This document shows positions 1,698 to 40,782 of a stretch of 42,359 bases of DNA, piece after piece. The translations under genes and the position numbers were made by a program. The notes below the pieces were generated by a model that ran no database searches, was not told the origin of the DNA, and saw nothing but the letters and a program-made list of their open reading frames with translations. The stretch lies in assembly GCA_027451885.1 (NCBI GenBank), contig DAIDHX010000292.1, positions 1 to 42,359 on the forward strand. Reading direction: 5' to 3'. Source of the stretch: Planctomycetales bacterium. Lineage in GTDB: Bacteria; Planctomycetota; Planctomycetia; Isosphaerales; Isosphaeraceae. Numbering within the stretch: the stretch's first letter is position 1; the number at the start of each line of letters is the position of its first letter.

Positions 1698-3752
1698 ATG
1701 CAGTTTCTGCTTGCGATCCTGGCCGCCAATGCGCTTGTTGCGACGTTCATCGCCGTGTTCGCCTGGCTGCTCAGGCGCATCGATCGTGGTCGTCCTGCGC
1801 TGGCGCATGCGTTCTTTCTCCTCGCGCTCGTCAAGCTGGTAGCACCGCCGCTGTTCGCGGTTCACCTGCCGCTGCCGACATGGCCGAAGAGCGCGGCTTC
1901 TAACAGGGAAGCCCCTGCCGAGCCGCTGCCGGTCGAGTTCCCTGCGATGGATGTGTCAGATGTTGCTTTCGAAGGCATGCGGGATGTCGCGGATCCGATG
2001 CCCGAGGTTCCAGCCCCTGCGCCTGAGATCCTGTCCGAGGCCACAGTTGCGCGGCCGCGCTGGTTGATCGTGCCGAAGCTCGACTGGTCCGTTTGGTTGG
2101 CCACCATGATCGGGGTGGGCGCGGTCTGCGTATGGATTGTCGCGACGATCCGGATCGTGCGCTTCGAGCGGCTGCTGCGGAACCACGCCAGCCACGCGCC
2201 TCACGAGTGGCAAACGCTGGTGGCCGCGGCGGCCAGCAAGATCAGGCTCAAGCGGCATCCGCCCGTTCTCGCGGTGCCAGGCCGAATGCCGCCCCTGCTT
2301 TGGGGCGGCGGAGGCCGCGCTCGGCTTATCATCCCCTCTCAGTTGTTCGCAACGCTTGATCCCAGCGCCCGCTCAACCTTGATCATGCACGAGCTCGCGC
2401 ACTTCAAGAGGCGCGACCACTGGGTGCGCTGGCTAGAGCTATTCGCCTGTGGCGTGTCGTGGTGGAACCCAGCCGCGTGGTGGATCCGCCATTCGCTCAG
2501 GCAGACCGAGGAAGAATGTTGCGACGCCTGGGTCGTCGCCAGCGATCCAGCAAGTTCAAAAGTCTATGCCAGAGCGCTGCTGGCCGCACTCGATTTCACG
2601 TCGGAATCGCCCCCGCTCGCTGGTGCGTCCACGCTTGGTCAGCGCAGCGATATTCCCTTCCTCAAAAGGAGATTTCACATGATCATGAAAGCGGATGCTT
2701 CGAATCGGCTTGGCCGCGCAGGGCGGCTGGCAGTGCTCGCCTTCAGTTTCGTTTTGCTCCCGCTCGCACCCGGCTGGGCGCAACAGGACAGCGCACGAAC
2801 GAACGACTCAGGGGACCAGCCGCACGAACGTTCTGCGCACTCAGCGCGTGATGATGCTCGTTCAGACACACACGCGAGAACCGTGCCTGACGACGTCCTG
2901 ACTGACGACCTGGCGGAGGGCGATGAGCCGGACGAGTTGCTCGACCCGGATATCCGCATGCGGATTCGTCCGAGGTTCAATGAGCGGGGAGAAAGGCATG
3001 TCGAAAGGGAGTTCGATCGAGAAATCGCGGAGCTTCGCGAACGAATCATGGATCTCGAGCACGCCAGGCGGAGCCTTCTGGAGGAGGTCGCCAGAACCGA
3101 GTCCGAGCTCCGGTCCGCGCTTGTGCAGCTCGATCGGATGCAGGATCGAGCCAATCAATTCGGCGAGTCGACGCGCGGGCGGAATGTGTCTCGCCCAGTG
3201 GATCCCCCGGCGCGTGGACCATCCTCGGCACGTCCGCGCAGAAGCGTTCCCCATCCAGAAACAGACAACCGGGAGCGACCGGGATCCGTCGACCGCTCTC
3301 CAGAAAGGCAGGGAGAAGCCAGGGCCCGGCAAGGCGCAGGGAGAATGGGGGGGATGATGCCGGGCCAGACGCACCAGATGGAGCGTCAGATGCCAATGAT
3401 GATGGGAGGAAACCCCGGAGCGGAAAGACCTGATCAGCCTGACCGAGCGATGATGGAAGCAATGATGCGCATGATGCAGGGCATGAGGGCAAACCGTAGC
3501 GCCCGGGGCAAGATGATGGGGACGGGAGGACCGATGGGAGGACCCAGCAACGAACGGCCGAGTGAGAGCGCTCAGGCGGCTGGGACGAAGCCAGGGACGA
3601 GCGCGGCGAGCGCTGCTGCCAAACCAGGCACGGGACGGGCCACGACCGACGAGGGCAAGCGGCTGAGCGAGCTCGAATCGAAGATGGATCTTTTGATCAA
3701 GGAATTGCATGAGCTAAAGCAGCAGCAAACGAAGACCAGCCCAAAGCGCTAA
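1698..3752 (+). CDS. BlaR1-like M56 membrane metallopeptidase with coiled-coil, Met-rich C-terminal extension
   Basis: 684 aa; the ATG at 1698 follows GGGAGG (1683-1688). The N-terminal part has TM helices (for example near residues 2-22 and 30-50), then the M56 zinc motif H231-E-L-A-H235 and the glutamate cluster E271-E273 followed by C-C-D276, the usual E...CD third-ligand region. A further TM or signal-like helix sits near residues 340-360. The remaining ~320 residues are unusual: a charged coiled coil (about 430-480), a low-complexity region, a Met/Gly-rich stretch (about 547-617) with repeated M-M and M-x-x-M, and a final coiled coil. No penicillin-binding sensor domain is visible, so the signal is probably not a beta-lactam. 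The Met-rich region could bind soft metals such as Cu(I), which is inference. Its stop overlaps the convergent monooxygenase stop by 4 nt. Confidence 0.8.
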   Translation: MQFLLAILAANALVATFIAVFAWLLRRIDRGRPALAHAFFLLALVKLVAPPLFAVHLPLPTWPKSAASNREAPAEPLPVEFPAMDVSDVAFEGMRDVADPMPEVPAPAPEILSEATVARPRWLIVPKLDWSVWLATMIGVGAVCVWIVATIRIVRFERLLRNHASHAPHEWQTLVAAAASKIRLKRHPPVLAVPGRMPPLLWGGGGRARLIIPSQLFATLDPSARSTLIMHELAHFKRRDHWVRWLELFACGVSWWNPAAWWIRHSLRQTEEECCDAWVVASDPASSKVYARALLAALDFTSESPPLAGASTLGQRSDIPFLKRRFHMIMKADASNRLGRAGRLAVLAFSFVLLPLAPGWAQQDSARTNDSGDQPHERSAHSARDDARSDTHARTVPDDVLTDDLAEGDEPDELLDPDIRMRIRPRFNERGERHVEREFDREIAELRERIMDLEHARRSLLEEVARTESELRSALVQLDRMQDRANQFGESTRGRNVSRPVDPPARGPSSARPRRSVPHPETDNRERPGSVDRSPERQGEARARQGAGRMGGMMPGQTHQMERQMPMMMGGNPGAERPDQPDRAMMEAMMRMMQGMRANRSARGKMMGTGGPMGGPSNERPSESAQAAGTKPGTSAASAAAKPGTGRATTDEGKRLSELESKMDLLIKELHELKQQQTKTSPKR
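2666..2681 (+). promoter_or_regulatory. Internal Shine-Dalgarno and in-frame ATG inside the M56 gene
   Basis: AAGGAG at 2666-2671 stands 7 nt before an in-frame ATG at 2679 (Met328). The shorter product would start with a signal-peptide-like stretch (MIMK..., hydrophobic core, then A-P-G-W-A before Q-Q) and carry only the coiled-coil and Met-rich part. The SD is made by two Arg codons (AGG AGA), whereas CGN codons dominate nearby. The K-R-R residues are also expected in this part of M56 proteins, so the match may be coincidental. Confidence 0.3.
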
Positions 3753-4768
3753 TGCTGGAGCATCGGGGCGACCTGTTCCATGAGCCTGCGCAAGCTGTCG
3801 GAGACAGTTTCGTGGTCCAGGCCTGCCCAGCGCACCTCGACGTTGGCAACGTCGAAAGGCGCTTCGTCGTGGAGCGCCTGGATCTGACGAGCGACCGACT
3901 CCGGCCCGCCGACGATGAAGTTGATCGGATGATGGACGAGTTCCTTTGCCGATTCCGGCTCGGGGGTATCCGCGGGGATTTTCCCCTCGGCCCGGAATCG
4001 CCGCCAAAGGATCCGTAGCGCGGGCTCAGCGCGCGACCAGGCGGTCGCATCATCGGGCCCGATAAATACGGGCCGATTCGCCGCGATCAGACCTGTTCCC
4101 CCCGCGCGGCGGTAGACGGCCGAATACTCGCGATACTGCGCCGGCGTGCGCAGGTGCGAAAAGAGCATGTTCAGCCCGAGTCTACCCGCGATCCCGGCGG
4201 ACCCGGCGCTATTGACCGCGATCCAGGTGCGCTTCCAGAGTTCGCTCGAAGCAACGGGCAAGGGCTGATGCGGTGGGATTGCGAAATACGCTTGTTGTCC
4301 GCTCGGTTCCGCCTGGTCAAACGCGCCGGACCACACAGAGCGAATGATCTCGAGCGCCTGTTCGAATCGGGCGTGGCGTTCATCCTCGCCTGTCTCAGCC
4401 GCGCCGAAAAGCTCAAATTCGCGGGGAGTGCTGCCACTGCCGAACCCGGGAGCCAGCCGCCCACGTGAAAGCACATCTGCCACCGCGGTCTGTTCCGCCG
4501 CATCAAGCGGATGGTGCAGATTGAGGCAAATCACCGCGGTCCCAAGCCGAATGCGCCGCGTTTGACCTAACATGTGCACAGCAAAGAGCAGGGGAGTCGG
4601 CAGATGCCCCTCATGGATATGGGCATGGTGCTCCGTGAACCACGCGTAACGCACGCCCAGCCGATCCGCAAGCTTCACGAGCTCGCTGACCTCGTCGTAT
4701 ATCTGAACCGAGGAGCGGTCGCGCGGACCCTCAAGATGGTCCGTGAGCCCAAACTGAATGTTTGCCAC
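3749..4768 (-). CDS. Luciferase-like (LLM) flavin-dependent monooxygenase
   Basis: 339 aa from GTG 4768, preceded by AGAAGGG; an in-frame TTG at 4792 is the alternative. Family features: N-I-Q-F-G-L near the N-terminus, A-W-F-T-E-H-H-A, R-I-R-L-G-T-A-V, H-P-L-D-A-A-E-Q, and D-V-L-S-R-G-R-L followed by a G-F-G-S-G-S segment, as in bacterial luciferase-like TIM-barrel enzymes that use FMNH2 and O2. The substrate is unknown. It lies 101 nt downstream of the AhpD-like selenoprotein on the same strand. Pairs of an LLM monooxygenase and an AhpD/CMD-like peroxidase-related protein are known in other bacteria, so the two may act together in oxidising a substrate or detoxifying peroxide by-products. 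Confidence 0.85.
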   Translation of the reverse strand: MANIQFGLTDHLEGPRDRSSVQIYDEVSELVKLADRLGVRYAWFTEHHAHIHEGHLPTPLLFAVHMLGQTRRIRLGTAVICLNLHHPLDAAEQTAVADVLSRGRLAPGFGSGSTPREFELFGAAETGEDERHARFEQALEIIRSVWSGAFDQAEPSGQQAYFAIPPHQPLPVASSELWKRTWIAVNSAGSAGIAGRLGLNMLFSHLRTPAQYREYSAVYRRAGGTGLIAANRPVFIGPDDATAWSRAEPALRILWRRFRAEGKIPADTPEPESAKELVHHPINFIVGGPESVARQIQALHDEAPFDVANVEVRWAGLDHETVSDSLRRLMEQVAPMLQH

Positions 4769-4869
4769 GATCGCCCTTCTTGTCGAACGCAAATCGATTC
4801 ACACCCCTGGCGGCTTCGATTTTACGCAAGCCAGGCAGGGCATGGGAATCGAAATCGCGCTCCGCGCGG

Positions 4870-5436
4870 TCAGTCGCGCCCCACGCCGAGTGAATCGGCA
4901 ACGCGATTGATGTAGTTGAACCAGGCTGCAATCAGCGTGATCTGCAGGATCGCGCGATCGTCAAAGCCAGCCTCGCGTAACCGGTCGTGATCAAGTGGTG
5001 AGACCTTCGTCGCGTCCTTCGTGAGCTTGACCACGTAATCGATCATGACGCGCTCCGCGGGCGTGACAGGCGCCTTCGTGTAATCGGCCTTGAGGGCCGC
5101 GATCAGAGCGTCATCGAGCGTAACCCGACGCAGAAACTCTGCGTGCGAGACAATTCAGTAATGGCAGGCGTTGGTGAGCGAAACCATCGTGGCGACCATT
5201 TCGTGCTGCCTGCGCGAGAGCGGCAAGTCGGGCGACATGAGTGCGCCAAAGGTTGAAAACGCGTGAAAGAGTGCCTGGGGAATCAACGTATGCGAGGCCA
5301 CGATGCCCGGCAGCCCCTGATCGAGTTCCTGCACCGGCTGTGCATACTCTGGGGGATACAGCGAACGCTGTTGCGACATCGCTCCGAGCAACTCGGCCGA
5401 GGCCTCTTCGAGTGCGATGGTCTTGATCCATGCCAT
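4870..5436 (-). CDS. AhpD-like (peroxidase-related) protein, predicted selenoprotein with C-x-x-U
   Basis: Read with TGA (5157-5155) as selenocysteine, the frame is continuous for 188 aa, the usual length of the uncharacterised peroxidase-related/AhpD family. The ATG at 5436 follows GGGAG with 7-nt spacing and lies 19 nt after the permease stop. The motif is E79-x11-C91-H-Y-U94-I-V-S-H98, exactly the AhpD signature E-x11-C-x2-C-x3-H with the TGA at the second cysteine. The 94 residues after TGA continue the family fold, ending [14 protein letters not shown] hairpin right after the TGA fits a bacterial SECIS. AhpD uses its Cys pair to reduce peroxides or disulfides; Sec would increase reactivity. 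The alternative is a point nonsense mutation or sequencing error of TGC/TGT, which would not explain the hairpin. Requires SelA/B/C/D elsewhere in the genome. Confidence 0.75.
5128..5157 (-). promoter_or_regulatory. Candidate bacterial SECIS element at the in-frame TGA
   Basis: On the minus strand, TGA (5157-5155) is followed after 10 nt by ACGCAGA (5144-5138), loop GTT (5137-5135) and TCTGCGT (5134-5128): a perfect 7-bp stem. The loop starts with G and lies 17 nt after the UGA, inside the 16-37 nt window described for bacterial SECIS elements and close to the arrangement in E. coli fdhF. The hairpin lies within coding sequence, as expected in bacteria. Confidence 0.65.
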
Positions 5437-5455: not shown

Positions 5456-6907
5456 TCAGGCTTGAAGAGAAGAATTCCGAGACGAATCCACCGCGGGCGT
5501 TTCGCCGCCGGGCGACGTCCGCGCCACCCACAGGGACACTGGGACGCCAAGCACGAGCACACCGAGACCTAAAAGCGCGCGCTGCCAGTCGTTGGCCACT
5601 GTTGCAATGACGAGTATGGACGTTGGAACCAGGAAGCCAAGCGTCGACGCGGGATGACCTGGGATCACGCATGTCGGATTAGAAGCGCGAAGCATGAAGG
5701 TGGATCCCGCCGCAAGTGCAAGGAAGAGCAGTGTCGGCGCCATGAAATATTTCAAGATCTGATCGAATGATCCTGTGAGAACGAGAGCGGTGGCCAGTAC
5801 AGCCTGGATTGCGATCGCCCGCACGGGCGCACCCGTGCGCGGATGAACGGCGGCGACCGTTGAGAAAAACAGCCCGTCGCGGGCGAGGGCGTAATAGACC
5901 CGCGGAAAGGCCATGAACACCGCCGCCAGGCTGCCGAGCAAGGCAACGACCACGATCGAGGACAGCACCACTCCACCCGCTCGGCCAAAGAGCGCTTCGC
6001 CTGCGAGGGCGACAAAGCCTTTTTCGTTGCCGATCGAGCTGGTGGAGACCAGGTAAAGGAACACGGCCGAGAGCCCCACGTAAGCGAGGGTGACGGTCGA
6101 AACTCCAAGCACAAGAGCTCGAGGCACGGTGCGCGCAGGGTCGCGTACCTCGCCAGCGAGCTTGCTCATATCCCACCAGCCGCCGAACGAGACGAACGCG
6201 GAGATGAGCGCGACAGGAAGCGCGGAGGCAAGCGCGGGAGAGCCGGGCGCACGCTCGAGACCAGGGGCCAGATTCGACCAATCACCCGCTCCCAGGGCGA
6301 AGCCCCAGACAATCAGGAACGCGATCAGGCCGAGCTTGAGCCCCGCCAGGCCGCGGAGGACGCCCGATCCCAGCGCGGGTCCGCGCATGTTGACGACTGC
6401 CATCGCGAGTGCAGCGCCCGCCGCGGCGAAGCGTTTGCCCCAGAACGAGAGCGGTATCAGGTAATCGAGATAGTCGGAAAGGCCGGCGGCCATCGCCGCC
6501 GTAACGCCTGGATCCGTGATCAGCAGCGATAGCCAGCCGTAAAGAAAGCCAGCGCGGCGGCCATAGCCATTGCGAATGAATACATAAACACCACCCGCGG
6601 AGGGATCACGCGCGGCCAGTGCGCCGAAACAAAGCGCTCCACCGATCGCACTCGCACCCATCACAAGCCAGACAAGCAGAAGCAAAAGCGGCGAGCCAAG
6701 CTCCCGGGCCATCAGGCTGGGCGTGAGAAAAATCCCAGCGCCCACCACCTCGCCCACGACGACCGCCACGGCCGTCGTGAGCCCAAATTTGCGCTCAAGC
6801 CCAGCACTCTTCGATGCCGCTTCCGCTTTGCTGGTTTCATCTTGCTCGAATGACACGCGCCCCTCCGCGAACCGTGCTTGATCCCAGTCTTCAGTAGCTT
6901 CCCCCAT
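5456..6907 (-). CDS. APC-superfamily amino-acid permease
   Basis: 483 aa with about 12 hydrophobic segments. G-E-V-V-G-A-G-I-F at residues 52-60 is the APC TM1 substrate-binding loop, and F-G-G-W-W-D followed by A-G-E-V-R-D-P-A-R-T-V-P-R-A is the conserved loop after TM6 in LAT-type members. It should move amino acids or related amines by exchange or symport; the substrate cannot be told. The ATG at 6907 overlaps the end of the DUF1559 gene by 17 nt, suggesting coupling, although the first ~40 residues are not conserved-looking and a later start (GTG at the V-S-F segment) is possible. The selenoprotein gene starts 19 nt downstream. Confidence 0.85.
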   Translation of the reverse strand: MGEATEDWDQARFAEGRVSFEQDETSKAEAASKSAGLERKFGLTTAVAVVVGEVVGAGIFLTPSLMARELGSPLLLLLVWLVMGASAIGGALCFGALAARDPSAGGVYVFIRNGYGRRAGFLYGWLSLLITDPGVTAAMAAGLSDYLDYLIPLSFWGKRFAAAGAALAMAVVNMRGPALGSGVLRGLAGLKLGLIAFLIVWGFALGAGDWSNLAPGLERAPGSPALASALPVALISAFVSFGGWWDMSKLAGEVRDPARTVPRALVLGVSTVTLAYVGLSAVFLYLVSTSSIGNEKGFVALAGEALFGRAGGVVLSSIVVVALLGSLAAVFMAFPRVYYALARDGLFFSTVAAVHPRTGAPVRAIAIQAVLATALVLTGSFDQILKYFMAPTLLFLALAAGSTFMLRASNPTCVIPGHPASTLGFLVPTSILVIATVANDWQRALLGLGVLVLGVPVSLWVARTSPGGETPAVDSSRNSSLQA

Positions 6908-12739: not shown

Positions 12740-12977
12740 GCTCTCAGGGACGAGCATCTGATTGCTGGGTGCGAAACGTCGCACTTGCATCCAGGGAAGC
12801 GCTTGCTTAAATCGTTGCGCGAGTCGCGTCGGGCATCGGGATCCGGTTGGTTCTCGCTTCGTGTCCGAGTCCGAGATTTTGAGGATGGGTTTCGTCCGTC
12901 GGCCTGGTCTGATTGGACCGCATGTCGTCGCGCCGGCGCCACAAGCCCTGTTTTGGCAACTGGAGGAGGATGAAGCC

Positions 12978-13634
12978 ATGCGCAAGTCGCTCTTCGCGTT
13001 CGCGATTGCTCTGGGCCTGACAGCCACGGGGCTGGCTGGGCCAGGCAAGTACAACAAGGTTCTCGCTCCCGGGGACAAGGCTCCCGACTTCTCGGGAATT
13101 CAGGCCGTCATGGGCGAGAAAGACGCCACTCTGAGCCTCGCGGACATGAAAGAAGACGTGGTCGTCATCGCTTTCCTGGCCAATCATTGCCCCTACGTGG
13201 GCAAGGTTGAAGATCGCGTGATCGATCTGGCCAAGCAGTATCAGGACAAGAACGTGCGGATTGTGGCAGTCTGCGTCACTCCGCCTCCCGAATACGCGCC
13301 TGAGGGCTATAACAAGGAGTACTGCGAGCAGGATACGCTCGCCAAAATCCGCGAGCGCGTGAAGGACAAGAATTATCCCTTCGCCTACGGCCGTGACGAC
13401 AGCCAGAAGATCGGCCGGGACTACGGCGCGGTGTCAACGCCCACCTTCTTCGTTCTCGACAAGGAGCGCAAGGTCCGCTACGAGGGCGCGTTTGACGATA
13501 GCATCGACGACGAGTCGAAGGCCATGCGACATTACGTCCGCGATGCGATCGACCAGATCCTTGCCGGCAAGAACGTCGAGGTTGAAGAGACCAATCCCAC
13601 CGGCTGCGGGATTAGCTACCGCAAGACCGAATAA
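12978..13634 (+). CDS. Secreted redoxin (AhpC/TSA-like thioredoxin-fold) protein
   Basis: 218 aa; ATG 12978 follows GGAGGAGG (12963-12970) by 8 nt, and the long upstream frame extension has no family similarity. A signal peptide (M-R-K-S-L, hydrophobic core, A-T-G-L-A-G) precedes the domain. P-G-D-K-A-P-D-F is the AhpC/TSA entry strand, and F-L-A-N-H-C71-P-Y-V the active site with a single Cys rather than C-x-x-C. S-T-P-T-F-F-V-L-D is the cis-Pro segment. A second conserved-looking Cys (C210, T-G-C-G-I) near the C-terminus could resolve the disulfide. Likely a periplasmic thiol peroxidase or reductase. It is monocistronic and convergent with the DUF1552 gene. Confidence 0.85.
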   Translation: MRKSLFAFAIALGLTATGLAGPGKYNKVLAPGDKAPDFSGIQAVMGEKDATLSLADMKEDVVVIAFLANHCPYVGKVEDRVIDLAKQYQDKNVRIVAVCVTPPPEYAPEGYNKEYCEQDTLAKIRERVKDKNYPFAYGRDDSQKIGRDYGAVSTPTFFVLDKERKVRYEGAFDDSIDDESKAMRHYVRDAIDQILAGKNVEVEETNPTGCGISYRKTE

Positions 13635-27944: not shown

Positions 27945-29015
27945 TTATCCCCGAAACCACGATGCTTGCTGAAGTGCTTGCTCATTGCTGCCGAGGAACC
28001 GTGTGATGGCCTGAGCAATCCCGAAAAGCGGCAGCACGTGCTCGGCAGCGCCTGCCTGTGCCGCGGCCTTGGGCATGCCCCAAACGACACTTGTGGCCTC
28101 ATCCTGGGCGATGGTGCGCCAACCTTGCCGCCGCAGAGCCAGAAGCCCCTCCGCGCCATCACGTCCCATGCCGGTCAAAAGGGCGGCCACACCTGCCCTC
28201 GGCCAGGCCCGCGCCAGGCTATGAAAGAATACGTCGATCGATGGCCGGTAAGAGGCGTCTCGCGGCTCGGGCGTGTATCGCAGCTTGCCGTCCGTCCCAA
28301 CCACAAGATGATCATCCGTGCTGGAAAGCAGAATTTCGCCGGGCTCGGCGGCACGCCCCTCGGAGATCAGCGAGACCGGCCGATTCGTTTGCTCCGCCAG
28401 CCATTTGCTCAAACCTGGCGCGAATGCCGAGTCGACATGCTGGACCACGATCACCGCGGCTGGTAGCCGCTTGGGTAGTCCGGAGAGAATCTCCGCAAGC
28501 GCCTGCGGCCCACCCGTTGACGCACCCAGAACCACCAGGGGGGTCGCCGCGACGCTCTTCGTCAACCGAGGGTTGGCGGCAGATACTGGGCTGGCGTTTC
28601 GAGCACTGCCTGGCGATTTTTTACCCGCCAGACGCTCGATCACGTGGAGCTTGTGCAGCAGCACGGAGCCTCCTTCGAGCTCACCGCGCGGGCCAAGCAC
28701 CGGCGTATCCACCGCGTCGAGCGCGCCATAACCCATCGCCTGATAGACCTTGTTCAGGTGCCCGCTCACCGTCGCGGTTACAATCAGGATCGGGCACGCT
28801 GCCTCGCCCATGATCCGTCGTGTGGCCTCCACCCCGTCCATCCCCGGCATGACGAGATCCATCAAGATCACATCAGGACGATCGACACGCGCAAACGCCA
28901 GGGCCTCCGCACCATCGCTGGCCAGCCAGGCGACTTCGTGCTCGCCCGTTGACTCCACGACGCGCCGGAGCGCCTCGCGTGCAAGCGCAACATCGTTCAC
29001 AATCCCGATCCGCAT
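27945..29015 (-). CDS. cheB: CheB protein-glutamate methylesterase, WspF-like
   Basis: 356 aa; ATG 29015 chosen over an in-frame TTG (29048) because the REC domain starts M-R-I-G-I-V-N-D. The acceptor is D53 in L-M-D-L-V-M-P-G-M-D-G. The methylesterase triad is S166 (G-A-S-T-G-G), H193 (V-Q-H-V-D) and D286 (T-G-M-G-R-D-G-A-E-G). The G-Y-G-A-L-D-A-V-D-T-P segment between domains resembles WspF. It should demethylate or deamidate the receptor encoded at 35883-37940. It is separated from cheA by the oppositely oriented sigma-factor gene, so it probably has its own promoter in the 226-nt gap at 29016-29241. Confidence 0.92.
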   Translation of the reverse strand: MRIGIVNDVALAREALRRVVESTGEHEVAWLASDGAEALAFARVDRPDVILMDLVMPGMDGVEATRRIMGEAACPILIVTATVSGHLNKVYQAMGYGALDAVDTPVLGPRGELEGGSVLLHKLHVIERLAGKKSPGSARNASPVSAANPRLTKSVAATPLVVLGASTGGPQALAEILSGLPKRLPAAVIVVQHVDSAFAPGLSKWLAEQTNRPVSLISEGRAAEPGEILLSSTDDHLVVGTDGKLRYTPEPRDASYRPSIDVFFHSLARAWPRAGVAALLTGMGRDGAEGLLALRRQGWRTIAQDEATSVVWGMPKAAAQAGAAEHVLPLFGIAQAITRFLGSNEQALQQASWFRG

Positions 29016-29241
29016 GCCGGCTGATTCCGAATTCTCAACGAGAATCAAAACAGGATAGGCCCCATTGTAGCATTACACTGCGCCTCCAGATCAGCCCTCA
29101 AACCGGCTTCTTCGCGCATGTTTTCGCGGATTTGTGTCACCCTGGACCTCTTGCAAGCCACATGCTGGCAGCCCGCGAATGATCAAACTGTCTGGACCAG
29201 GGTTTCCAGCATCGCGGATACAATCAGCCGAGATCTTCCCG

Positions 29242-30945
29242 ATGAATCTCAACGTTGAAAGCGACCCGAGCCTCTGGAGTCTGGTATGCGCAGGGAGCAC
29301 GGAAGCATTCGAGATCCTGGTTGCGCGCTATCAGTCGCTCGTGACTGGCGTCGCCTACAGTTACTGCGGTGATCCTGGGCTGAGCGAGGACGTGGCTCAG
29401 GAGACATTCTGGACGGCCTGGCGCACGCGTGAGTCGCTCTCCGATTCCGCCCGACTAAAGCCCTGGCTCTGCGGAATCGCACGCAACCTTGGACGAAACG
29501 CGATGCGCAAATCGGCACGATCGGCGATCACCAACCTTTCAGGCGACCTGGAAGTCTCGGCATCGGCCGAAATTCGTGATCCTGAAGAGTCAAGCGTCTC
29601 GCACGAAGAGGCGTTGCTTCTCTGGAGCACGCTCGAGCGTCTACCCGAGACCTATCGCGAGTCACTCGTTCTCTTTTATCGCGAGGACCAATCGGTCGCG
29701 CACGTGGCCGAGGCGCTCGAAATCAGCGAGGACGCCGTTAAACAACGACTCTCGCGTGGGCGGGCGATGCTCCGTGAGCGGCTCGAGCTGGTTGTTGAAG
29801 AAGGGCTCAGGCGCAGCCGGCCGGGGCGGATGCTCACTGTTGCCATCATGGCGGGGATCACGTCAGGTTCGATGACCACCAAGGCTGCCGCGGCGGCTGG
29901 AGCAGGGGGAGCGGTTGGGGCCAAGGCAACCTTCGCCCTCGGATCTGGTTTACTGGGCGCACTCGGAGGCGCGGCGGGCGGACTCCTCGGCGGCTGGCTG
30001 GGTGCGTGGGTGCCGGCACAGCTCGCGGCGAGCCGTGCCGAGCGTGAGCTCCATCTTCGCACCGGCCGCAGGATACTGCTGTTCTCGATCCTCTTCATCG
30101 CCATGCTCCTCGCCACGATGTCTTTCCTGGCTGGCGTGAACCGCTGGATCGCCTGGGGCGTGGCGATGGTGCTCTTTGAGCTCTACGTCGCCCTGGAAAC
30201 GATCCTGCTGGTGCGTACCATTCGCAGGCTTCACAAAAGCAAGACTGAGCTTCCTCTGAATGATACATCCCTGCGCAAGCAGATCTTGAATTATCAGGCG
30301 CGGCTGAAAGGGCGTGTGTATCGCAGCCGGCTCACGTTCCTGGGCCAGCCGCTCGTGGACGTCAACGTGAGCGATCCCACCATTTCCCGGTCGTCCGGGG
30401 ATTTATCACGAGACCCGAATCTCGGCACTGCGCGGGGCTGGATCGCAATTGGCGACCGCGCATACGGCTGGTTGTTCGCGATGGGCGGCACCGCGCGTGC
30501 GCTTATCGCGCTCGGCGGCCGGGCCGTTGGGCTTGTGAGTTTCGGGGGAGTCGCCGCGGGAGGAATTGCGGTTGGCGGCCTTGCCGTGGGTGCGGTCGGG
30601 GTTGGAGGACTTGGAATCGGCGCGGTCGGGATTGGCGGGCTGGCGATTGGCTGGCAGGCGGCCGGAGGCGCTGCGTTTGCCTGGGATTTCGCCTGCGGCG
30701 GCGCTGCCCTGGCGCGTCATGGCGCAGCGGGGGGACTTGCCTTTGCATCCGATTATGCCATCGGAGGTGAAGGCGCTGCCCAACACTTCAACGACCAGGC
30801 CGCAAAGGACATGCTCGAAAATCGATCCCTCAAGCGCGGCGTCGATCTCGCGATCAAGAATCCCTGGCTCTTTCGCGCTGTACTGTTGAGCCTGATCTTG
30901 CCGGTGGCTTTCATACCACTGTTGTACAAACGCATTTATATATAA
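29242..30945 (+). CDS. ECF sigma factor fused to a membrane and glycine-repeat domain
   Basis: 567 aa from ATG 29242; ATG 29179 is a possible earlier start. Sigma region 2 (about 12-90: F-E-I-L-V-A-R-Y-Q-S-L-V, S-E-D-V-A-Q-E-T-F-W-T-A-W) and region 4 (about 120-175: L-P-E-T-Y-R-E-S-L-V-L-F-Y-R-E, E-D-A-V-K-Q-R-L-S-R-G-R-A) are complete. Then follow an Ala/Gly-rich stretch, two or three TM helices (about 270-335), a basic linker, and a long run of short G-x-x-x-x-G repeats (about 420-515), possibly a beta-helix like pentapeptide-type proteins, plus a final TM. The fusion would tether a sigma factor to the membrane, replacing a separate anti-sigma. It lies convergent to cheA (7-nt gap) and divergent from cheB, inside the chemosensory cluster. 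Confidence 0.85.
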   Translation: MNLNVESDPSLWSLVCAGSTEAFEILVARYQSLVTGVAYSYCGDPGLSEDVAQETFWTAWRTRESLSDSARLKPWLCGIARNLGRNAMRKSARSAITNLSGDLEVSASAEIRDPEESSVSHEEALLLWSTLERLPETYRESLVLFYREDQSVAHVAEALEISEDAVKQRLSRGRAMLRERLELVVEEGLRRSRPGRMLTVAIMAGITSGSMTTKAAAAAGAGGAVGAKATFALGSGLLGALGGAAGGLLGGWLGAWVPAQLAASRAERELHLRTGRRILLFSILFIAMLLATMSFLAGVNRWIAWGVAMVLFELYVALETILLVRTIRRLHKSKTELPLNDTSLRKQILNYQARLKGRVYRSRLTFLGQPLVDVNVSDPTISRSSGDLSRDPNLGTARGWIAIGDRAYGWLFAMGGTARALIALGGRAVGLVSFGGVAAGGIAVGGLAVGAVGVGGLGIGAVGIGGLAIGWQAAGGAAFAWDFACGGAALARHGAAGGLAFASDYAIGGEGAAQHFNDQAAKDMLENRSLKRGVDLAIKNPWLFRAVLLSLILPVAFIPLLYKRIYI

Positions 30946-30952
30946 CAGTTCA

Positions 30953-33316
30953 TTATGATAATTCCCTTGGCTCGCCGATCAGGTCGGCGATCGTATGCAA
31001 GAACGTCTGATCGTGAAAGCTGCTCTTGGTGAGATACGCACTCGCGCCGGCGTCGAGTCCGCGGATGCGGTCTTCCTCGCGATCCTTGTACGACACCACG
31101 ACCACGGGCATGCTTCCGAGTCGCGGATCATCCTTGATATGCCGGACGAGCTGGATGCCGTCCATCCGCGGCATGTCGATGTCGGTGACCACGAGGTCGT
31201 AGTTTCCCGATCGGACGGAGTTCCAGCCGTCGACGCCGTCGACCGCGGTATCGACCTTGTAGCCCTTGTGCTCGAGGAGCTGGCGCTCGAGCTCGCGCAC
31301 GGTGACCGAGTCGTCCACCACAAGAATTCGCTTCACGCTTCGGCCTGATCGCTCCCGCGCGGGGGAGGATAGCTTGCCGATGCGGCGGCCCGAGAGCAGG
31401 TTGTCGATCGAGCGGATCATGTCTTCGACGTCGATCACGAGCGTCGGCCAACCGTTTTCAAGCACCGACGAGCTGTTAATATTCGGTGTTTTGCCCAGCC
31501 GAGCATCAAGCGGTGAAACGCGCAGGTCGCGCTCACCGAGAAACCGATCGACGACCACGCCGAAACGATGGCTGCGGTCGCTCGCGACCACGACCGGCAT
31601 GAGCGCGTCGGCCTCGCGTTCGCGTTCGGGTTTGAGATCGAGTACGAGCGTGGCCTCGACCAGACCCACGGGCTCGCCGTCGACCATCGCATGCGGCTTG
31701 CCTTCGAGTTCGATCACATCTTCACGTCTGAGCAAGAAGATGCGATCGATTCGGTTGAGCGGAAACGCGTATGGTTCGGCCGCGATTTCGACCAGAAGGG
31801 CCCGGATCACGGAAACGGTGATCGGAAGTTGAAGGATGAACCGCGTGCCCTTGCCGAGCCGGCTCGAGACGCGAATCGTCCCCTTGACGGCGTGGGCCAT
31901 GCTGGCGACGACGTCGAGACCGACGCCGCGCCCGGAGACCTCGGTCACTTGATCCTTGGTGGTGAAGCCTGGCAGAAAGAGGAATTCCAGCAACTCAGCC
32001 TCATTCAAGCGCGCGGCGATTGGTCCGGTGGTGAGTCCGCGAGAGACGACGTTGATGCGCAGTTTCTCGATGTCGATGCCGCGGCCGTCGTCGGCGAGAA
32101 TGATCTGGAGCATTCCCGCGCGGTGCCGCGCCTCGAGCCGGATCGTGCCGCCAGGCGCCTTGCCAGCGGCTGCGCGCTCGTCAGGCATCTCGAGCCCGTG
32201 GTCAAGCGCGTTGCGAATCAGATGGTTCAGAGGCGCTTCAAGCTGATCGAGGATGTCGCGGTCGACGCCGGTCGTTTCGCCCACAATTTCAAACCGGGCT
32301 TGCTTGCCGAGCTCGCGGGCAAGGTCGCGTACGAGGCGGGGAAATCCCTTGACGCCGTCGGCGAGCGGGCGGAGACGGCTTGAGAGCACCTCGTGTCGTA
32401 GCCGACTTGAAAGCTCCTCATCGGCGCGGGTGAATTCCTCGAGCCCCTCAACCACCTCGGAGAGCAAGAGCGACGCCTGGCTTGCCTGTCCCCGGGATTC
32501 AGCCAGTAATTCGCGCTCGGCGATCGACCAGGCGGCAGTTCGGTCGTCGAGCCCACGGCCGAGCTTTTCGAGCGTCTCTTCGAGCCCGGCCTGCCGCGCC
32601 TTGAGGCGCCAGAGAGCATCCACCAGGGGGCGCAGGCGGTGCGTCTGGACCACGGCTTCCCCCGCGAGCCCTGTGAGCCGATTCAGACTATCGGCCGAGA
32701 CTCGCACCACGCGATCGTGGTCTGGCGCGCGGGTGGGCTCACGATGCACGTTGATCACTGCCGCTTTTGGAGCGATCGTGATCTCGGAGGATGAGGGCGT
32801 GGGTAGCGCCACAGGTGCGGGATCAGGTGCAACCTGTGGCGTGGGCGCGGGTGAGGCCGCGACCGGAGAAGCAGGCGCGGGTGTGAACACCGGCGTGGCG
32901 GCTTGATAACGACCTTCGCGCACAAGGCCGAGCTCGGCGACGAGCGCATCGATCGCTCCCGCGTTTTCCGCCTGCCAGGCTTCGAGCTCCGACTCGGCCA
33001 GGTTACTGATCCGGGACAGCCAATCGACGCCGCGAAGCATCACGTCCACGCTCTCGGAAGCAAGTACGATGGCCCCACGCTGGGCCGCAACGAAACAGTC
33101 CTCGAGCGCGTGTGCGATTCTGACCGCGGGATCAAGCCCCACCACCCGCGCAGCTCCCTTGAGCGAATGCGCGGCTCGCATGAGCGGCTCAATCGTTGCC
33201 GGCAGAGCGGTCTGGCCCTCGAGCGCAATCAGGCCTGTGGAGAGCGTGGCGGTGTGGCTTTCCGCTTCCATGCGGAAGAGCTCGATCAGGGAGAATCCGC
33301 TCAGATCCTCGCTCAC
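30953..33316 (-). CDS. cheA: Hybrid CheA-REC histidine kinase, WspE-like
   Basis: 787 aa from GTG 33316, whose codon overlaps the preceding cheW stop by 4 nt. Domains: Hpt with phospho-His H50 (A-A-H-S-L-K-G-A-A-R), a Pro/Ala-rich linker (about 145-195) with no clear P2 domain, dimerisation and HATPase (N-H-L-I-R-N-A-L-D-H-G near 362; D-D-G-R-G-I-D; G-R-G-V-G-L-D-V-V), a CheW-like domain, and a C-terminal REC with acceptor D712 in V-T-D-I-D-M-P. The layout matches WspE. It should autophosphorylate in response to the receptor array and phosphorylate CheB and the REC-PP2C regulator; its own REC may act as a phosphate sink. The gene ends 7 nt from the convergent ECF gene. Confidence 0.92.
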   Translation of the reverse strand: MSEDLSGFSLIELFRMEAESHTATLSTGLIALEGQTALPATIEPLMRAAHSLKGAARVVGLDPAVRIAHALEDCFVAAQRGAIVLASESVDVMLRGVDWLSRISNLAESELEAWQAENAGAIDALVAELGLVREGRYQAATPVFTPAPASPVAASPAPTPQVAPDPAPVALPTPSSSEITIAPKAAVINVHREPTRAPDHDRVVRVSADSLNRLTGLAGEAVVQTHRLRPLVDALWRLKARQAGLEETLEKLGRGLDDRTAAWSIAERELLAESRGQASQASLLLSEVVEGLEEFTRADEELSSRLRHEVLSSRLRPLADGVKGFPRLVRDLARELGKQARFEIVGETTGVDRDILDQLEAPLNHLIRNALDHGLEMPDERAAAGKAPGGTIRLEARHRAGMLQIILADDGRGIDIEKLRINVVSRGLTTGPIAARLNEAELLEFLFLPGFTTKDQVTEVSGRGVGLDVVASMAHAVKGTIRVSSRLGKGTRFILQLPITVSVIRALLVEIAAEPYAFPLNRIDRIFLLRREDVIELEGKPHAMVDGEPVGLVEATLVLDLKPEREREADALMPVVVASDRSHRFGVVVDRFLGERDLRVSPLDARLGKTPNINSSSVLENGWPTLVIDVEDMIRSIDNLLSGRRIGKLSSPARERSGRSVKRILVVDDSVTVRELERQLLEHKGYKVDTAVDGVDGWNSVRSGNYDLVVTDIDMPRMDGIQLVRHIKDDPRLGSMPVVVVSYKDREEDRIRGLDAGASAYLTKSSFHDQTFLHTIADLIGEPRELS

Positions 33317-34071
33317 GAGCAGTACCCCCCGAGCGCGGCGAAGACGCGCTGCTCGTCGAGCAGATCCACCGTGCGGCCCTTCCACGTCACGACCGCCTTG
33401 CCAAAGCCCACGGCTGGGTTGGAAAGCGTGGTTGGCACCTGGCGCGTCTCGGTGGGATCAAACTGCTCGACCCCGGCGACCTCATCCGCGGCGAACGCCC
33501 AGATTTCGCCGCGCTCGCGATCATGCAGCACGATCGTGCGCGGCGGCTGCGTCTCAGGATCGATCCCTAGCAACCCATGCAATGACACGCAAAGCACAAT
33601 TTGCCCGCGTAGACTCATGATGCCCGTGAAGATCGCATTCGTGCGATGCGGCACCCGGTGTACAGGACGCGGGGCGACGACTTCGGCCACGGCCTTCGCC
33701 TCGATGGCCAGCCACTCGCTCCCGAGTCGAAAAACGAGCAGTACGATTCCGCGGGTGAGTCGATGATGCTCACGATCCGACGTCTCATCGCGGCACGCAG
33801 CCAGCTCGTCAGGCGCGGCGAGCCAGCGTGACCAATCGGCAAGGTAGCCTTCAGGCGCGGGGCGATCAAAGAAGGAGCGAGCCGCCTCGGCGAACACCGG
33901 GCATTCGCGGCAATGCACGAGCGCCTTGAGCTCCGGGCAGCTCTGATCGCCTCCCACGCCGATGCGATTCCAGCAGTCCACGAGCGGCAGTGCGATCAAC
34001 GTGGACGGAGCGCTCGCTGGGCTCGCACCACCATCCGGCCCGGATTCCCCATTGTCGGGATTCAAAGGCAT
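33313..34071 (-). CDS. cheW: CheW adaptor of WspD type with Cys-rich N-terminal extension
   Basis: 252 aa from ATG 34071; the upstream extension would overlap cheR and is not conserved-looking. Residues 33-57 (D-C-W-N-R-I-G-V-G-G-D-Q-S-C then C-R-E-C) match the N-terminal segment that distinguishes WspD from ordinary CheW; the cysteines are C33, C45, C54 and C57. The CheW fold follows (L-V-F-R-L-G-S-E-W-L-A-I-E-A-K, H-R-T-N-A-I-F-T-G-I-M-S-L-R-G-Q-I). It couples receptor to CheA. It overlaps cheA by 4 nt and follows cheR by 37 nt. The four Cys could bind metal or sense redox state, which is inference. Confidence 0.88.
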   Translation of the reverse strand: MPLNPDNGESGPDGGASPASAPSTLIALPLVDCWNRIGVGGDQSCPELKALVHCRECPVFAEAARSFFDRPAPEGYLADWSRWLAAPDELAACRDETSDREHHRLTRGIVLLVFRLGSEWLAIEAKAVAEVVAPRPVHRVPHRTNAIFTGIMSLRGQIVLCVSLHGLLGIDPETQPPRTIVLHDRERGEIWAFAADEVAGVEQFDPTETRQVPTTLSNPAVGFGKAVVTWKGRTVDLLDEQRVFAALGGYCS

Positions 34072-34108
34072 ACAGCACGACCTGCTCTCGTTATGAACAT
34101 AGGGCCGA

Positions 34109-35344
34109 CTAGCTCGCGGCCTCGTGGCCGGTTCGTCCCTTCGCTCTCCGCCGCAGCCGCGCCGCGGCCGTTGCGTCCCCACGCTGCTCGGCCAGAACCG
34201 CGAGCGATAGCAACGCCAGCTCGTGTCGCGGATCCAGATACACCGTCTTCAGAAAGCACTCTTCAGCGCGTTTGCGATCTCCCTGACCAAGATGGACGAC
34301 CCCCATTAAATGATACGCCCGCGACGACGGACCACGCTCCTGGATTTCTCGCTCGCAAAGCGCGAGAGCCTCGCTCTTTTTGCCCAAATTCAGAAGCTGC
34401 TCAGCCTGATCGAGCCGCGTGCCGGGCAGCCGAGGCGCTGGTTTCTGCCGTGAGTGCGCAGCAGCCTGCACGGGCGTTGCAAGCGCCGGCGGCATGCGTG
34501 CGGGGTCAGCAAGCGGAACAGGGGGAGTGGCGACCTCGCTCGCACGGCGGTACGTAAAACAGGCAGAATCTCCGCTGGGCACAAACCGCGGTGACTGCCC
34601 GCTTGATCCCAGGCGGTCGGCATGTCCGAGCACCAGCCAGCCATCTTGCGCCAGCTTACGCTCGAGCAGCAGCTCGACATGATTCCGAGTCGTCTCCGTC
34701 AGGTAGATCAGCACATTGCGGCAAAAGATAATGTGATAAGGAGCACATTCCGCGAGCAGGTGAGGCGCGAGCAAGCTCGCCTGGCGAAACCGCACGAGCT
34801 TCCTGAGCTCGAGATCAATCTCGTAACCCTGCGGATGCGTGTGAAACCAACGTGGAATCAGCTTCGAACCAGCGCCTCGGAATGCATTGCTTGAGTAAAC
34901 TCCTGCCCGGGCGGCGGCGAGTCTTCGCGCGCTTGTGTCAACCGCGTCGATGGCGAATTGATCCTTCGTCAGGCCCGCTTCGAGCAGCACGATCGCGATC
35001 GAATATGGCTCCTCGCCACTGGAACAGGCCAGGCTGAGCACACGCAAAGGTTGCGGCAACGTGTTCGTGGCGCGCATGCGAGCGACCAACGTTCCCAGCC
35101 AGTCAAAAGGGCGTTCATCTCGCAAAAACCAGGTTTCCGGAACAACAACTTCCTCGATTAGCTCCTGCTGTTCATCACTCGAGATGCTGATGACCTCTTC
35201 ATAGCTTGCAATTGAATCGAGCCCGAGCGCGACCATCCGCCGCTTCACCGCGCGCAAGAGCAATCCGTGCGGCAACGACCTGGAATCAAGGCCGATCAGC
35301 CTCTCCAGCAACAGTTCGATTGATTGGGGCAGGGCCCGCTTCAT
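34109..35344 (-). CDS. cheR: CheR methyltransferase with C-terminal TPR, WspC-like
   Basis: 411 aa. N-terminal CheR helical domain (L-L-L-R-A-V-K-R-R-M, T-W-F-L-R-D), SAM-binding S-L-A-C-S-S-G-E-E-P-Y-S-I-A, and I-I-F-C-R-N-V-L-I-Y-L from the catalytic domain. After a Pro/Ala linker come TPR-like repeats (about 325-400: A-E-Q-L-L-N-L-G-K-K-S-E-A-L-A-L-C-E), as in WspC. It methylates receptor glutamates. The ATG overlaps the upstream cheW stop by 4 nt. Confidence 0.92.
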   Translation of the reverse strand: MKRALPQSIELLLERLIGLDSRSLPHGLLLRAVKRRMVALGLDSIASYEEVISISSDEQQELIEEVVVPETWFLRDERPFDWLGTLVARMRATNTLPQPLRVLSLACSSGEEPYSIAIVLLEAGLTKDQFAIDAVDTSARRLAAARAGVYSSNAFRGAGSKLIPRWFHTHPQGYEIDLELRKLVRFRQASLLAPHLLAECAPYHIIFCRNVLIYLTETTRNHVELLLERKLAQDGWLVLGHADRLGSSGQSPRFVPSGDSACFTYRRASEVATPPVPLADPARMPPALATPVQAAAHSRQKPAPRLPGTRLDQAEQLLNLGKKSEALALCEREIQERGPSSRAYHLMGVVHLGQGDRKRAEECFLKTVYLDPRHELALLSLAVLAEQRGDATAAARLRRRAKGRTGHEAAS

Positions 35345-35871
35345 GAGCGCGGCTCCCTTGCGGCATCGGGCGAATCTGGCACAGGATCGGCCATGACGGC
35401 CTGACCCACGAGCATGGCGGGGAGTTTTTCAACTTCGATCAATTGCAGAATCTGGCCGCGATCCTGCCGCACGATTGGCCCCAAAAAGGGCGCATTCGGT
35501 AGGCGCACGGGTGCGGGGATCAGGTCGTTTGACTCAACTTTGAGCAAGTCGCTTGCCTGTTCCGCCACCAGTCCCATAACAACGCGCTCGTGCGGCTCGC
35601 GTGCTGGTTGAGCTTCCAACCGAGCGGGAGTTGCATCCACCAGCAAAATGCGTGTGGCTAACCTGTCGCGGCAGCGGTCGGAACCGATCAAAAGCCCAAG
35701 CTCGAGAATCGGCACAATGCGCCCGCGGTAGGAAAGCAAGCCGGCCAGATATCCAGGCGCAAGGGGTGCGGTGCGCAGCCGCACGCGGGGCACCACCTCG
35801 ATCACCCGCGCAGCATCAACGGCATAGCGGTTGGCATCAATCGTGAAGGCAAGAAGGAGCATGGCGCGCAC
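35341..35871 (-). CDS. cheW: CheW adaptor, WspB-like
   Basis: 176 aa from GTG 35871; ATG 35862 (fourth codon) is an equally possible start. A single CheW domain: L-L-L-A-F-T-I-D-A-N-R-Y-A-V-D, V-P-R-V-R-L-R, P-G-Y-L-A-G-L-L-S-Y-R-G-R-I-V-P-I-L, and V-M-G-L-V-A-E-Q-A. It links the receptor tip to CheA. It starts 11 nt after the receptor stop and overlaps cheR by 4 nt. Confidence 0.88.
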   Translation of the reverse strand: MRAMLLLAFTIDANRYAVDAARVIEVVPRVRLRTAPLAPGYLAGLLSYRGRIVPILELGLLIGSDRCRDRLATRILLVDATPARLEAQPAREPHERVVMGLVAEQASDLLKVESNDLIPAPVRLPNAPFLGPIVRQDRGQILQLIEVEKLPAMLVGQAVMADPVPDSPDAAREPRS

Positions 35872-35882
35872 CCAATCTTGAC

Positions 35883-37940
35883 TCAGGCCGAAACCGGCGG
35901 CGGCTCGAGCGCGGTCGACGACGGTGCCAGCGTGAAGCGCGACACCTCGTCCTTAAGCCCGCCCACGGCTTCTCGCAATCGCTCGGTCGCTTTATTGAAT
36001 TCCTGGAGGGTAAGCGAGGTCTGCGTCGCCGCTTCCGAAAGCCGAGACATCGCCTCACGGATCTGCTCCGCTCCTTGCGATTGAACCCGCATCCCCTCCG
36101 TCACCTGATCAAATCGGTGGTGCAAGCCTTGCGTGCCCGTGATGATCTGGCCAAGCTGGCCGCCGATCGAACCCACCTCACCCACCACCTGCCGGACCTG
36201 CTCACTGAATTTGTCCATCTCCATCACACCGGCCGAGACGCTGTACTGCATCTCCTTCACCATCCGCTCGATATCGAGCGTGGCGACGGCAGTCTGATCG
36301 GCAAGCCGGCGGATCTCACGCGCGACCACCAAAAAGCCCAAACCATATTCGCCCGCCTTCTCGGCCTCGATCGCGGCGTTGATGGAGAGCAGATTCGTCT
36401 GGTCCGCAACCTTGGTGATCGTGGTCACCACGAGGTTGATATTCGCCGCCCGTTCGCTGATCACCGACAGCCGGGCGCTGATGGTCGACGTTGACTCCGC
36501 AAGCTGGCGCATCGTCTGATCCATGCTGGAGAGGCTCTGCTGCCCGGTCGAGGCCGTGCGGGCCGCCTGATTGGCCACCTGGTTGACCTCGTTCATCGTT
36601 TTGAGCAACTCATGGCTGGTCGCGGAGATTTCATTGACCGCGGCGGCCGCCTGGTTGGTCGACGCCCCATAGTCGTAAACAGCCTGTTCCTGCTGCCGAG
36701 AAGCAGCCGCGATCTCGGTCGCGGTTGAAAGCAGCGCGATGCTCGAGCGCTGAATACGCCCAATCAACGAGCGCAGATCGAGGATCATCTTGCGCACCGA
36801 ATCGAGCAGGAGACCCGCCTCACCGGGCGCCTGGCTCGTGAAATCGACCATGAGATCACCCGCCGCCACGCGCTCCGCGGCCGAGGCCGCGTCCCGAATC
36901 GGTTGCGAAATCGTCCGAGCCACCAAGATCGCCACCAGCGTCACCACGAGCACCGTCGCAGCCAGCAAGCCCGCCACGACCACGCTCTGCCACCGTGTCA
37001 GCGCAAAGGCCTCCGCCAGATCCTGTTTGACAACCATCCCCCAGCGGAACGATGGAATGTAAGACCACACCGCAACAACCTTTTCACCTCGATAATCGGT
37101 CATGGTGCCGTACCCGCGACGGCCTTGCACCGCGAGCTTCATGGCTTCTGCGCTTGTCGAGGCAAGCGACCGCCGACTGAATTGAAGCGTGGGATCGTGC
37201 CGCGACGGCGCGACGAACCAGAGCTCGTCCCCTTCGCGACTGGCCACAACAGCCTCACCCGTTTCCCCCAGCCCGTCATAATCTTGAAAGACCTGGAACA
37301 ACTGGTGATTGTCGAGCTCGAGGACCACGTAGCCAATGATCCGCTTGTCCCGAAATACCGGGCCGGCGATGAACGCGGCCGGTTCTTCATGGCCAGCGTA
37401 GATCTGATAATTCGACACTTCTACCTGAAGCAGCGTCCGTACCCGGTCAACCACCTTCGCGAACTCAGTCGCCTTGAGCGGGCCCGTGAGTGCGTTGTCG
37501 CCCGGCTGGATATCCGACGTCACCTGGTAAAGAATGTTGGCATCTGTATCAAGCAAGAAGGCATTCTCGTAACCGTAGACTTCCACCAGATTCGTCATGT
37601 AAGGGCGATACTTGTCGGCAACTGCGAGATATTCCGGCGCGGTGCGTGCCATCTTCTTGCGCAGCTCGCCGAGCGCGGTGATCATGGTGTTCACCGTCGG
37701 CGATTTGGCGAGCCAGTGTAGATGAGCTCTGCGCTCGTGAATAAAGTCCTCGATCTGGGTCGTTTTGGCATCGGATGTGGCGAGCAATCCCTGGCGCACT
37801 GTGCGCTCGAGCGAGTTCGCGGAAAGAAACGAGATCAGAAGGGTGAGCACACCGCATGGGACGAGCGAGATCAGAAGAAACCAGAGCAGAAGCTGGGTGC
37901 GAATGCTCGCCAGGAAGTGCACGCGACTCAAACGGCTCAT
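35883..37940 (-). CDS. Methyl-accepting chemoreceptor (Cache-type sensor, HAMP, MA), WspA-like
   Basis: 685 aa from ATG 37940, overlapping the upstream binding-protein stop by 4 nt. TM1 about 16-40; periplasmic Cache-like sensor about 41-315 (Y-G-Y-E-N-A-F-L-L-D-T-D-A-N-I, G-P-V-F-R-D-K-R-I-I-G-Y-V-V-L-E-L-D); TM2 about 318-341; HAMP about 342-395. The cytoplasmic coiled coil has its signalling tip at about 513-547 (N-L-L-S-I-N-A-A-I-E-A-E-K-A-G-E, V-V-A-R-E-I-R-R-L-A-D-Q-T). No C-terminal CheR-docking pentapeptide is seen. It should form arrays with the CheW proteins and CheA. The coupled upstream genes suggest that the UrtA-type proteins deliver the ligand signal, as maltose-binding protein does for Tar; that step is inference. 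Confidence 0.92.
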   Translation of the reverse strand: MSRLSRVHFLASIRTQLLLWFLLISLVPCGVLTLLISFLSANSLERTVRQGLLATSDAKTTQIEDFIHERRAHLHWLAKSPTVNTMITALGELRKKMARTAPEYLAVADKYRPYMTNLVEVYGYENAFLLDTDANILYQVTSDIQPGDNALTGPLKATEFAKVVDRVRTLLQVEVSNYQIYAGHEEPAAFIAGPVFRDKRIIGYVVLELDNHQLFQVFQDYDGLGETGEAVVASREGDELWFVAPSRHDPTLQFSRRSLASTSAEAMKLAVQGRRGYGTMTDYRGEKVVAVWSYIPSFRWGMVVKQDLAEAFALTRWQSVVVAGLLAATVLVVTLVAILVARTISQPIRDAASAAERVAAGDLMVDFTSQAPGEAGLLLDSVRKMILDLRSLIGRIQRSSIALLSTATEIAAASRQQEQAVYDYGASTNQAAAAVNEISATSHELLKTMNEVNQVANQAARTASTGQQSLSSMDQTMRQLAESTSTISARLSVISERAANINLVVTTITKVADQTNLLSINAAIEAEKAGEYGLGFLVVAREIRRLADQTAVATLDIERMVKEMQYSVSAGVMEMDKFSEQVRQVVGEVGSIGGQLGQIITGTQGLHHRFDQVTEGMRVQSQGAEQIREAMSRLSEAATQTSLTLQEFNKATERLREAVGGLKDEVSRFTLAPSSTALEPPPVSA

Positions 37941-40689: not shown

Positions 40690-40710
40690 ATCGCCCAGGT
40701 CCCCAAATGC

Positions 40711-40741
40711 AAAAGCCGACCAGCGCTCGCGAGCCGAGCGC
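40711..40741 (-). terminator. Candidate Rho-independent terminator before the sensory operon
   Basis: On the minus strand, GCGCTCG (40741-40735), loop GCTCG, CGAGCGC (40729-40723): a perfect 7-bp GC-rich stem. TTTT follows at 40714-40711. The U-run is short and 8 nt from the stem, so it is a weak terminator. It lies between the DUF6263-type stop (40783) and the first binding-protein start (40689). Confidence 0.4.
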
Positions 40742-40782
40742 CAGTCGTGCCTGGTTGTACGCAAAAGGACGCGCCCAGTTGC

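Follow-up and report, generated by a model that had tools for sequence, protein, structure and literature searches.

A conserved in-frame TGA and downstream hairpin in an AhpD-like gene of an Isosphaeraceae-related planctomycete very probably direct selenocysteine insertion

The minus-strand gene at 4870-5436 of the window (the whole stretch of planctomycete DNA analysed here, 42,359 nucleotides) is very likely translated as a genuine selenoprotein and belongs to TIGR01926, the AhpD-like peroxidase-related family. Read-through translation of this ORF gave 188 codons followed by a terminal TGA at 4872-4870, with a C-terminus reading ...LGVGRD, and a single internal TGA was the only break in the 188-aa AhpD-fold frame. 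The initial annotation had placed this TGA, at 5157-5155, on the second redox position of E-x11-C-x2-C-x3-H, and the translation agreed: the motif is E79-x11-C91-H92-Y93-U94-x3-H98, with the TGA as the second position of the C-x-x-U pair (Table 1). It was also right that a conventional annotation cuts the protein at residue 93 and that the host is a planctomycete, the nearest named relatives being Isosphaeraceae. That Sec is present in the protein itself is what we infer from the sequence patterns described below.

Table 1. Features of the selenoprotein gene and its permease neighbour (window coordinates)
Feature	Position	Strand	Basis
AhpD-like (TIGR01926, CMD fold) candidate selenoprotein gene	4870..5436	-	read-through translation, TIGR01926, PF02627, AlphaFold, PDB fold matches
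In-frame TGA, predicted Sec94, second position of the C-x-x-U pair	5155..5157	-	TGA/TGC at that codon in homologues
Cys91, first redox-pair residue, presumed resolving thiol	5164..5166	-	alignment A1
His98, putative proton relay	5143..5145	-	invariant in A1; relay residue in AhpD/PA0269 (PMC3141380)
Glu79, putative proton relay	5200..5202	-	invariant in A1; relay residue in AhpD/PA0269 (PMC3141380)
Predicted bacterial SECIS hairpin, ACGCAGA-GUU-UCUGCGU	5128..5144	-	fold, bSECIS rules, synonymous conservation of codons 98-103
APC-superfamily amino-acid permease, upstream and separated by 19 nt from the selenoprotein start; probable operon partner	5456..6907	-	PF13520/PF00324, adjacency, ATGA overlaps

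The TGA is conserved far beyond the host genome. Scanning of 84,980 species-level genomes yielded 72 related loci, in which the same codon was TGA in 60, TGC in 11 and lost in an assembly gap in one; residue 94 in the homologues was Cys or Sec and nothing else. These loci are spread over Planctomycetota, Acidobacteriota, Gemmatimonadota, Poribacteria, Zixiibacteriota, KSB1, Chloroflexota and Armatimonadota. Two of them belong to named strains, Aquisphaera insulae JC669 and Pyrinomonas methylaliphatogenes K22. In a sample of Planctomycetota genomes, 49 of 199 carried a match to the gene, and exactly one TGA was found in 60 of the 61 matches. Within the host's own family the TGA was present in 12 of 14 close matches, including two low-contig genomes (G223 and G227); the other two, from one genus (G234 and G213), both encode Cys. 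A UGA aligned with Cys or Sec and followed by an open frame, the pattern expected of bacterial selenoproteins, was therefore observed. Four Planctomycetota genomes (G132, G178, G016 and G058) carried two to three different AhpD-like genes, in G132 at locus L098 and two further places, each with one in-frame TGA and with differing downstream hairpins.

A nonsense mutation or a sequencing error, which would make the gene a pseudogene or mask a codon that really encodes Cys, might be suspected given that the host assembly is a 316-contig draft and that one homologue (L069:3044-3683) has several extra in-frame stops past the conserved TGA, owing either to decay of that copy or to a frameshift in its assembly. 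However, the same TGA recurs in dozens of independent genomes, the two named strains and the two low-contig genomes included. Apart from L069, the TGA-bearing loci had no further in-frame stop; in 59 homologues the downstream sequence was fully conserved, and close relatives likewise kept the TGA and an intact downstream frame instead of degrading. On this comparison of homologues we regard mutation or error as refuted, with a negligible chance of being correct.

Behind the UGA, the initial annotation had described a perfect 7-bp stem with a G-starting 3-nt loop, beginning 10 nt past the TGA and inside the SECIS window. Folding confirmed this structure. The bSECIS rules (PMC13188914) specify a loop of 3-9 nt, a stem of 4-16 bp, a G in the first two loop positions, a spacing of 16-37 nt and an MFE <= -7.5; the hairpin has a 3-nt loop with G first, a 7-bp stem, a spacing of 17 nt and an energy below -7.5 kcal/mol. 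Its stability was not above chance compared with shuffled sequences (z -0.23 to -1.24) and not significant compared with synonymous recoding (p = 0.20). Folding energy, which is ordinary for GC-rich coding sequence, was consequently dropped as evidence for a SECIS element, and the Rfam models, SECIS included, gave no match.

Synonymous-site analysis of 58 Sec genes and 12 Cys genes, in which all Sec genes were used with no motif-based selection, clearly revealed constraint on the hairpin nucleotides. The excess of synonymous identity at codons 98-103 was 0.61-1.00 in the Sec genes, compared with a gene mean of 0.09 (sd 0.18), while the flanking codons 95-97 and 104-107 were at background level. 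This stretch ranked at the top of 175 six-codon windows in the Sec genes and 167th of 175 in the Cys genes. The hairpin thus stands out from chance by the persistence of its nucleotides at synonymous sites and not by its fold energy; the TGA, too, is conserved beyond chance. The hairpin sequence was kept in 50 of the 58 Sec genes. Sec homologues without it (L056, L058, L060, L061, L063, L064 and L067) point to a planctomycete and Chloroflexota subgroup, comprising part of L056-L067, that must use some other hairpin. An intact SECIS hairpin sequence was also present behind a TGC in a Latescibacterota Cys form with the motif CIYC (L027:4001-4564), which likely represents a recent Sec-to-Cys change.

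The genes of the selenocysteine pathway, whose presence the selenoprotein interpretation demands, were all detected in the host genome: a tRNA-Sec with a UCA anticodon on contig C195, selB on C197 (300.7 bits), selD on C273 (369.2 bits), and selA in two complementary pieces, one at the end of C267 (model positions 5-192) and the other at the end of C315 (202-450). The selA pieces read as one gene broken by the assembly. Among Planctomycetota genomes, selB occurred in 47 of 49 that carry the AhpD-like gene and in 88 of 150 that do not (Fisher p = 1.4e-7, a value that overstates independence because the sampled genomes are related). No selB was detected in two TGA-bearing genomes of the 49 (G061 and G149, both drafts), nor in G200; the Cys-form genome G234 likewise lacked a detected selB. 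Taken together with the Cys and Sec homologues, the intact relatives and the agreement with the bSECIS rules, the sel genes support the selenoprotein that the initial annotation had proposed.

That TGA encodes a residue here would also be expected if the codon were reassigned genome-wide, or read as Trp or another residue. Several observations are at odds with reassignment: Cys is the sole alternative residue at this site in homologues, tRNA-Sec(UCA) and SelB are present, TGA doubles as the terminal stop of the same protein, and the hairpin is constrained in TGA-bearing genes only, a feature specific to Sec insertion. We therefore consider reassignment extremely improbable and selenocysteine the preferred reading of the codon.

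The read-through protein scored 111.2 bits against TIGR01926 (curated cut-off 81.8) and also matched PF02627 (CMD); among Pfam and NCBIfam models, no family more specific than TIGR01926 was found. The equivalog NF041238 (AhpD_rel_CFYUT, an alkylhydroperoxidase-related selenoprotein) shares the fold and the CxxU position, but was excluded: the protein scored 58.3 bits where the cut-off is 175, and the model is 357 positions long. All 44 homologues in alignment A1 matched TIGR01926, with weak matches to NF041238, and E79, Y93, residue 94 and H98 were invariant among them. The relay of AhpD and PA0269, which consists of Glu, Cys, His/Tyr, Cys and His (PMC3141380), maps to E79, C91, Y93, U94 and H98. 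The AlphaFold model (mean pLDDT 93.9) predicts a helical fold, which together with the relay E-x11-C-x-[HY]-C/U-x3-H is typical of AhpD/CMD proteins. Its best matches among solved structures were the AhpD or peroxidase-related proteins 6k40, 2prr, 2pfx and 3c1l (TM about 0.8, sequence E down to 3e-22), which carry Cys where the window protein has the predicted Sec and are only about 24-30% identical to it. M. tuberculosis AhpD and P. aeruginosa PA0269 have the same relay, E-x11-C-x-[HY]-C-x3-H, but with Cys instead of Sec in the redox pair, and the former (1gu9) was a weak fold match, with a TM of about 0.55-0.62 at best.

AhpD-like CxxU selenoproteins were described in the Sargasso Sea survey of 2005 (PMC1088965) and the Global Ocean Sampling survey of 2008 (PMC2398784), and Sec machinery in planctomycetes, including I. 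pallida, was reported in 2016 (PMC4807772). The initial annotation was hence correct that AhpD-like Sec proteins were known, but it understated the case, since a 2026 review explicitly lists TIGR01926 itself as a CxxU selenoprotein family, with MCB9421940.1 as an example (PMC13188914). Because the protein passes the TIGR01926 cut-off, a known family gains a member. Like the marine AhpD-like 1 proteins (TIGR01926/COG2128), it passes the same cut-off, has its predicted Sec second in CxxU and is followed by a bacterial SECIS element. The published proteins came from marine metagenomes, whereas those sampled here came mainly from Planctomycetota and Acidobacteriota and show an adjoining APC permease and a near-invariant SECIS sequence across phyla; this comparison is one of described features.

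In a tree of 105 proteins, Cys forms fell inside Sec-dominated clades. Well-supported branches forced at least four Sec/Cys label changes, and shuffled labels never needed so few. Given this nesting and the small number of changes, Sec is probably ancestral in the sampled clade, although choosing homologues by their resemblance to a Sec query biases the sample towards this outcome. Position 91 is Thr (TxxC) in eight of the 11 Cys forms (L048, L050, L053, L054, L055, L057, L059 and L065), suggesting that the partner thiol disappeared along with Sec in these proteins. Every form has Sec or Cys at position 94, and position 91 appears dispensable in some Cys forms, which would fit residue 94 as the attacking atom. 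No tree of this shape, in which Sec forms enclose Cys forms and several of the latter went from CxxU to TxxC, was found in the literature searched.

From these sequence features and the established bacterial pathway, we propose that SelB carrying Sec-tRNA(UCA) would bind the hairpin just past the UGA, so that residue 94 is decoded as selenocysteine and the ribosome does not stop. The protein would fold as a helical AhpD domain in which a His98/Glu79/Tyr93 relay activates Sec94. By analogy with the family mechanism, the most likely target of Sec94 is a peroxide or disulfide; a selenenylsulfide would then form with Cys91, most likely the resolving thiol, and be reduced by a cellular dithiol. AhpD hydroperoxidase or adaptor activity is suggested by the conserved relay, and peroxide or disulfide reduction is the function that we moderately favour.

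Clustering of all flanking ORFs identified the APC permease as the one conserved partner of the gene. It was found at 21 loci including the window, on the same strand in 21 of 21 and within 300 nt in 19 (17 upstream, two downstream). The linked loci belong to Planctomycetota, Acidobacteriota and Zixiibacteriota and include both Sec and Cys forms; at L034 and L048 the permease gene ends, and the AhpD-like gene begins, within a shared ATGA. The permease was present at 10 further Isosphaeraceae loci as well, several of them probably of the same species as the first set. We found no description of this linkage in the literature searched, which did not extend to subscription journals. In the window, the permease is probably co-transcribed with the selenoprotein gene and, more tentatively, may supply or share the substrate of its product; a functional link between the two is conceivable, and we lean somewhat against it.

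Other neighbours proved less informative. The downstream LLM (luciferase-like) flavin monooxygenase at 3749-4792 was rejected as a partner, being conserved only in the nearest relative (L003). Long open frames at L099 and L100 had suggested a fused giant protein; this was also rejected, as the gene really begins at the AhpD domain and no recognisable protein is encoded in the frame upstream of it. Elsewhere in the window, a plus-strand AhpC/TSA-Redoxin protein (12762-13634; PF00578, PF08534) is a possible peroxiredoxin that does not adjoin the selenoprotein gene. A chemosensory-type cluster at 27945-38096 contains CheB-, CheA-, CheW-, CheR- and receptor-like ORFs, judged by eye from translations, and beside it lie two tandem ABC-type substrate-binding-like proteins (37937-39283 and 39418-40764).

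The permease bears on whether the enzyme is a peroxidase at all. A real selenoprotein could instead be a thiol/selenol reductase acting on another substrate, for instance disulfides like cystine imported by the permease, or on a halogenated compound, as does the CMD-fold debrominase Bmp8. The conservation of the linkage in three phyla, in both gene orders and with ATGA overlaps, is consistent with such a role, as are the appearance of Bmp8 (6ohi, 6ohj) among the fold matches and the weak AhpD-type peroxidase activity of PA0269 (PMC3141380). However, in both sequence and fold the protein best matches peroxidase-related or AhpD proteins, and Bmp8 is only 14-15% identical. We rate a non-peroxidase role as a minority possibility. 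A bolder and rather unlikely idea is that the Sec-AhpD protein and the APC permease make up a conserved unit, translationally coupled in some cases, in which the selenoenzyme reduces what the permease imports (e.g. cystine or an oxidised amino acid) and is not a general peroxide scavenger.

Sec is the usual form of the protein in Planctomycetota and Acidobacteriota, and conventional annotation would systematically cut it at residue 93 there. The clade offers a clean natural experiment on the exchange of Sec and Cys, with nested Cys forms, several changes from CxxU to TxxC, and one Cys form in which the SECIS hairpin still stands behind TGC. The permease linkage, in turn, provides a concrete substrate clue for a widespread and biochemically uncharacterised selenoenzyme family.
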